From Candidatus Dormiibacterota bacterium (GTDB lineage Bacteria; Chloroflexota; Dormibacteria; Aeolococcales; Bog-877), in the NCBI GenBank assembly GCA_027306655.1, contig DAHUZL010000160.1:1-46956 (forward strand): a stretch of DNA of 46,956 nucleotides, in the 5' to 3' direction. The number at the start of each line of letters is the position of its first letter. Position 1 is the stretch's first letter. Shown here in pieces: positions 31,102 to 32,189 of the stretch. The notes beneath the pieces are model-generated. The model saw only the letters and a list, made by a program, of their open reading frames with translations, did not search any database and had not been told where the DNA came from. A program made the translations under genes and the position numbers.

Positions 31102-32057
31102 GCGGCCAGCGCCGGTCGCGCGCGCGACCGGCGCAGACCGGCGCCACCGTGTCCGGGTCCAGCGGCTCGCCCAGCTCGAGGGGCCGACCGACCAGCAGGT
31201 GGCGTTCGAAGGACGGATCCTGCAGGCGCCCGCCCACCCGCTCGTCGTCGATGATCTGCCCGCGGTCCTCCAGCTGACGGCGGGCGCGCTGGGCGCTGGA
31301 TTTGGCCAGGTCGGCTCGCTCCAGGAACGGCTTGGAGTCCGGCTCCCGAGTGGGATGGCCGGCGAGGGCGTCCACGAGCTGCTTCTGGCTGGGCCTGTAT
31401 CCATCGAAGCGGTCGGCCAGCGCGCCGCGCTGGGCGACGAGCCCGTCCACCAGGGCGCGCTGCACCTGCGGGATGTCGATCACCGGGTCCTCCCGAACCA
31501 GGAAGGCCGCCATCGCGTCCTGGTTGATCACCGGCAGGGCGAGGAGGTCGCCGACGTTCTGCAGGGGGGCGGCGACCCCCACGAACAATCGCTCCATCAT
31601 GTGCCGGCGCGAACCGCAGAACCCGAGGGATACCTCGGGGAGGTCATCGGTGATCGCCGTGAAGGCGCCGCCCAGGGCGTCGTCGATCTCGGCCACCTGC
31701 TGGAACTCGTCAAGGATGAGGGCGACGGGGTGCCGGGACCGAGCGGCGCGGGCCAGCAGCTCGACCGGCCGGCGGATCTTCTCGACGAAGTCGCTGTCGG
31801 AGGGGTGAGCTCCAGCGAGTACGTCCAGCCGTCGTGCTGGAGCTGGGGCCGGACCCCGGGCAGGCCGCGCCGCCCGTGCGCGCTGTCTCCGCCGCCCGGA
31901 TCAGGAGGGAGGACTTGCCGTAGCGGCGCGGGGAGATGACAAAGGCGTTCTGCCCGTCGAGGAGCCGGCGCACCAGCCAGGCGACCTCCCTCTCGCGGTC
32001 GCCGGAGCGCTCCCCGCGGACCGGACTGCCGGACAGGAACGGGTTGGGCCCCTCATG
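31067..32057 (-). pseudogene. Decayed AAA/STAND-type ATPase (Walker A and Walker B in different frames)
   Basis: Block 1 (ORF 31710..32159): NPFLSGSPVRGERSGDREREVAWLVRRLLDGQNAFVISPRRYGKSSLLIRAAE. Block 2 (open frame upstream of 31696): SDSDFVEKIRRPVELLARAARSRHPVALILDEFQQVAEIDDALGGAFTAITDDLPEVSLGFCGSRRHMMERLFVG. Different reading frames. Confidence 0.85.
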
Positions 32058-32070
32058 AGCAGACGGAGAC

Positions 32071-32126
32071 CGCAGATCGCGGACCGCACACTGCGGTCCG
32101 CACACTGCGGTCCGCAGTGTGCCGTC
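32071..32126. repeat. Four tandem 14-bp units forming overlapping palindromes
   Basis: CGCAGATCGCGGAC / CGCACACTGCGGTC / CGCACACTGCGGTC / CGCAGTGTGCCGTC. Palindromes 32079-32101 and 32101-32121. Confidence 0.9.
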
Positions 32127-32189
32127 TCTGGAAGCGGTCGGACCGAGGGTCCCGGGCACCCCCCGGGGCAGGTGCGGGGCCCGTTCGCC

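Follow-up and report, generated by a model that had tools for sequence, protein, structure and literature searches.

A decayed ATPase gene preceded by a palindromic repeat array

The window, by which we mean the whole 46,956-bp stretch of DNA analysed here, contains a decayed gene for an AAA+ ATPase with a C-terminal winged helix, preceded by an array of short repeats (Table 1). The gene has undergone frame changes and an internal loss, and three separate profile-matching pieces remain on the minus strand (31205-32048), with the missing part between the first two. The frame shifts soon after an ATG that, judging from where homologues start, is the likely ancestral start codon. The P-loop, DEFQ Walker B motif and winged helix that characterise the family are seen here only as broken pieces, and the gene is of a standalone form, not fused to other domains.

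An earlier note, made from the sequence alone, had described four 14-bp tandem units of which the middle two are identical, two perfect palindromes sharing one base and an enclosing AGACGG/CCGTCT pair, all on the 5' side of the decayed ATPase. Every element of this description is present at the stated coordinates, the shared base being position 32101. On the minus strand, 4 bp lie between the end of the array and the likely ancestral ATG. Its direct-repeat score is 25 (best shuffle, 11) and its inverted-repeat score is 16 (best shuffle, 12), and neither value was reached by any of 1000 dinucleotide shuffles. Nowhere else in the window does the direct-repeat score reach 20 or more.

Table 1. 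Coordinates of the repeat array and the decayed ATPase gene in the window. Repeat units 1 to 4 are numbered in minus-strand order.
Feature	Position	Strand	Remarks
Whole repeat array	32061-32127	-	67 bp; read as promoter/operator region of the ATPase gene
Repeat unit 1	32103-32116	-	TGCGGACCGCAGTG; 11-bp palindrome plus 3-bp spacer
Repeat unit 2	32089-32102	-	TGCGGACCGCAGTG; same as unit 1
Repeat unit 3	32075-32088	-	TGCGGTCCGCGATC; 10/14 identity to unit 1
Repeat unit 4	32061-32074	-	TGCGGTCTCCGTCT; degenerate, 4 bp from the likely ancestral ATG
14-bp units, plus-strand register	32071-32084, 32085-32098, 32099-32112, 32113-32126	+	middle two identical, CGCACACTGCGGTC
23-bp palindrome	32079-32101		GCGGACCGCA-CAC-TGCGGTCCGC; 10-bp arms, 3-bp spacer
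21-bp palindrome	32101-32121		CACACTGCGG-T-CCGCAGTGTG; 10-bp arms, 1-bp centre
Flank AGACGG	32061-32066		
Flank CCGTCT	32122-32127		
Decayed AAA+ ATPase gene	31205-32056	-	C-terminal winged helix; profile-matching pieces
Likely ancestral ATG	32054-32056	-	
ATPase piece 1	31869-32048	-	profile positions 4-63
ATPase piece 2	31493-31807	-	profile positions 131-235
ATPase piece 3	31205-31480	-	profile positions 278-369
26-bp perfect palindrome	31109-31134		GCGCCGGTCGCGCGCGCGACCGGCGC

The 70 bp upstream of the window ATPase contain no TA dinucleotide and no recognisable -10 element, which fits a dead promoter. With its gene broken and no -10-like element beside it, the window array is now a relic. 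In a congener (G001), neither the ATPase nor the array is found beside the CoA-ligase gene. The neighbourhood is rearranged in that genome, with a VOC-like gene and a solute-binding protein paralogue beside the CoA ligase, so that no simple insertion boundary (a clean empty site) could be drawn. A separate perfect 26-bp palindrome lies in the window directly past the stop codon of a solute-binding protein gene and before the decayed ATPase; it is terminator-like but lacks a T run.

The earlier note had also raised the possibility of a recombination site or the root of a REP/MITE-like element. The palindromic structure of the array would suit such a dispersed or recombining element, but REP/MITE elements require many dispersed copies per genome, and the 2.8-Mb genome contains no further exact copy of CGCACACTGCGGTC. 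Allowing up to one mismatch, a search of this genome recovered the array and two single-mismatch matches, against one for a reversed control. No DNA similar to the array was found in plasmids. Since the array sequence is unique in its genome, we set the REP/MITE identification aside, and found no support for a recombination site either; we consider this whole class of explanation almost certainly wrong.

Repeat arrays of constant pitch precede homologous genes

Intact homologues of the ATPase were taken from related genomes and from across bacteria, their records being labelled as Dormiibacterota, Chloroflexi, Actinomycetota, Elusimicrobia, Desulfobacterales, Bacteroidales, Neomarinimicrobiota and others. 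In homologues from many phyla, short repeats precede the start codon at the same site, each with a different sequence. Upstream of one intact homologue (L007) lies GCGTACCGCA-ATG-TGCGGTACGC, which has the 10-3-10 palindrome layout of the window, while others carry ATAGCGAAGCGCAT in tandem (L134) or repeats of TTGCGTAACGCAACTTGCGTAA (L136), AGCGTGTAAAGGTAAAGCGTGTAAA (L042) and GGTACCGTAGCAATCGGTACCGTACC (L062). The earlier proposal that copies might precede intact ATPase genes therefore held for the architecture and failed for the sequence.

For 57 non-redundant homologues (<60% amino-acid identity), we scored direct-repeat lags from 6 to 40 within 80 bp upstream of the start codon and recorded the best one. 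The best lag was 14 or 15 bp in 34 of the 57 (60%; the other roughly 40% had a different best lag). Of 1140 control windows drawn from these loci, 8.9% had such a lag (p = 1.1e-21), as did 4.1% of 122 other gene starts there. The mean excess lies at lags of 14 and 15 bp, and there is a smaller rise around 30; the signal peaks in, and is confined to, roughly the 60 bp that end at the start codon. When homologues were weighted by repeat-sequence class, the 14/15 share was 0.56-0.60 where the threshold yielded 18 or 35 classes and 0.44 where it yielded 6.

In held-out genomes the pitch signal was partly replicated, with a lag of 14/15 in 8 of 26 (control 10%, p = 0.003). Splitting this set after seeing the data, the closer Bacteroidota members had this lag in 8/12 cases, and a distant actinobacterial subfamily instead had a lag of 22-23 bp in 8/13 (versus 4%). 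This subfamily (L226, L227, L228, L232-L234, L236 and L245, also L027) has an SPFxxxGPLxPE.. N-terminus, and its longer pitch is a post hoc observation. Five further plasmid loci, none of them used earlier, include a Vibrio locus with a clear 14-bp array and another that ties at 15. The former is on a plasmid of the culturable Vibrio sp. SCSIO 43186 (L183), where three CTAAATACT units at 14-bp pitch stand before the homologue gene.

Significant short palindromes were found in only 7 of 35 arrays. We therefore dropped palindromic units as a general rule; the conserved feature is the direct-repeat pitch, and the perfect palindromes of the window are its unusual part. In another branch (L143-L145), there is no tandem repeat upstream and a single palindrome of the type ATACATNNNATGTAT lies near the start codon.

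These comparisons bear on whether the window array is a functionless product of local slippage that lies beside a pseudogene by coincidence. Its two identical units and the decayed gene make a recent change in copy number by slippage likely in the window copy, which was possibly reshaped in this way. However, intact homologues have arrays at the same place and pitch, in one case (L007) even with the same palindrome layout, and we regard coincidental slippage as a very doubtful account of the array itself.

The arrays tested are private to their genes

Three repeat types were searched for in 11 genomes, and each occurs at one place per genome, at the ATPase. The array pattern of genera g5 and g2, which belong to the family of the window genome, has its one place at the ATPase promoter in six genomes with the gene and no match in four congeners without it. 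For the other two types, matches on both strands of a palindromic site were taken as one place: arrays of the GCGTWACGC type occupy a single place per genome in four genomes, and the AACCTWTAGG array occupies one place in G455. Paralogues within a single genome carry different arrays (four in G455; two each in G179, G249 and G452). Both the search of the window genome and those with the three repeat types thus found the site to be specific to its own gene, as is expected of an operator.

Location over a promoter would suit any repressor, and in principle the ATPase genes could be controlled by some other regulator of the host, with the array as its operator. Such regulators usually act on several targets, and one of them would not follow a single gene family through many phyla. 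The repeats, however, differ from lineage to lineage and among the paralogues of a genome, occur at one place per tested genome and, for one type, are absent from four congeners without the gene. Nor did we find a recurrent neighbour able to encode a separate regulator, recurrence being limited to close relatives or a few scattered loci. Control by another host protein is unlikely on these grounds. A convergent PadR-like gene adjoins the ATPase in close relatives from one genus of the window's class (L112, L128-L132).

Arrays of GC-rich members overlie promoters

Among GC-rich homologues, 23/35 genes (2% expected) have a TANNNT motif between -20 and -9 relative to the start codon, and RBS-like sequences are few. 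This suggests that the genes of GC-rich members are probably leaderless. The arrays of intact GC-rich homologues overlie the -35/-10 region, the -10 lying inside the array or downstream of it; overlap with the gene's own promoter, a further property of operators, is therefore seen in intact homologues, while the window copy has no recognisable -10.

The position of the -10, almost touching the start codon, argues that the array of GC-rich members is promoter DNA rather than an RNA leader. As folded single-stranded DNA, the window array is far more stable than shuffles (z = -5.4), as would be expected if the ATPase mRNA had a hairpin or attenuator in its 5' leader. Against this, many homologues have direct repeats without palindromes, the GC-rich promoters look leaderless, and an Rfam search of the array gave only sub-threshold chance matches and none at the gathering score. 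We judge an RNA element to be extremely unlikely.

The ATPase is a candidate DNA-binding protein

The structure of an intact homologue (L036) was predicted using AlphaFold2 from a 72-row alignment with a pLDDT of 95.8, and comprises an AAA+ core and a C-terminal winged helix. The best solved Foldseek matches of this predicted fold are the archaeal ATPases 2qen and 2fna (SSO1545), followed by Orc1/Cdc6 proteins, including DNA-bound forms. The ATPase_2 family was matched by 62 of the 72 homologues, and the P-loop, DEFQ Walker B motif and C-terminal winged helix expected of ATPase_2 / archaeal AAA+ ATPases are found in the homologues. PADLOC and NCBIfam searches of intact homologues gave weak matches only, and a sequence search of the PDB gave nothing useful. 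The winged helix, predicted at high confidence, makes the ATPase a candidate DNA-binding protein. Covariation between the winged helix and the repeat was slight (partial r about 0.06), and a control region was also correlated.

The resemblance to Orc1/Cdc6 raises the possibility that the ATPase is a replication initiator and the array an ORB- or iteron-like origin. In Haloarcula, each origin depends on a co-located cdc6 gene (PMC3936714). A private site next to each gene and the presence of family members on some plasmids agree with such a role. The arrays, however, are short and overlie a promoter whose -10 is near the start codon. Genomes have several different copies, and the neighbourhoods show no recurrent plasmid or replication genes. 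We strongly doubt an origin function; of the iteron-like site proposed earlier, the link to an Orc1/Cdc6-related fold stands, whereas the overlap with promoters points to an operator.

In genomes of the Bacteroidota phylum, the AAA+ winged-helix module forms the N-terminus of proteins of 1300-1900 aa (L250-L253, from L191-L198). Further regions of these fusion proteins are TIR, NACHT-like NTPase, pentapeptide and WD40, hinting at a role in defence. A lag of 14 was found upstream of 3 of 6 fusion genes from this phylum, where the array may serve to silence an immune-type protein that could be toxic.

A proposed private autoregulatory operator

We propose, with a probability of roughly 0.7, that the array is a promoter-embedded, private autoregulatory operator of the minus-strand ATPase gene, with the ATPase as its candidate binder. 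Of the roles suggested in the earlier note, a multi-site regulator operator is the one strongly supported, as intact homologues carry arrays over the promoter at a pitch of 14-15 bp. Repeats at the same site and with near-constant spacing, yet with a different sequence for each gene, suggest that each ATPase controls its own gene. Within some 60 bp upstream of its start codon, each gene of the family would have private tandem sites of its own at this pitch, extending from the -35 to the -10 of a promoter that is mostly leaderless. The ATPase would most likely bind its own sites through the winged helix, one protomer per 14-15 bp unit in a head-to-tail arrangement, and we infer that the bound protein would repress or gate its own transcription. 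Switching would plausibly follow the nucleotide or signal state, with a presumed dependence on ATP.

A wider and more tentative generalisation, which we would not ourselves bet on, is that the widespread AAA+ winged-helix NTPases are private, self-addressed units, in which the gene's own product controls it through a tandem array. How the ATPase oligomer is arranged on DNA would then fix the pitch (14-15 bp, or 22-23 bp in the distant subfamily), whereas the sequence would drift from gene to gene. TIR-NACHT immune-type proteins would have incorporated the unit, where it would serve as a transcriptional safety switch.

Archaeal-type AAA+ winged-helix ATPases are common, often in several copies, and we know of no function for them. 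A conserved, private array of constant pitch offers these proteins a concrete possible role as sequence-specific self-regulators, and links them to TIR-NACHT conflict proteins. No description of conserved private repeat arrays at ATPase_2-family promoters was found in the literature searched.

Comparison with known systems

PAB2304 (2qen), SSO1545 (2fna) and the Pfam families ATPase_2 / AAA_16 have the same overall fold, including the C-terminal winged helix, but the members described here are bacterial. TIR-NACHT-WD40 conflict proteins of the STAND type share the same ATPase module at their N-terminus, some with a 14-bp lag upstream, whereas the window gene is standalone.

Orc1/Cdc6 proteins with their ORB boxes, Orc1-2 (PMC9738581) and the Haloarcula cdc6/origin pairs (PMC3936714) likewise combine AAA+ and winged-helix domains with private DNA sites adjacent to the gene. 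Archaeal Orc1-2, a regulator with both domains, has been reported to bind a motif within its own promoter (PMC9738581), which is a precedent for autoregulation. Unlike those systems, the arrays described here overlap promoters at a pitch of 14-15 bp, with no evidence of an origin. A regulator reading tandem direct repeats of variable number is known in BldC, which binds direct repeats as head-to-tail multimers (PMC5859096), although BldC is an unrelated, MerR-like protein.
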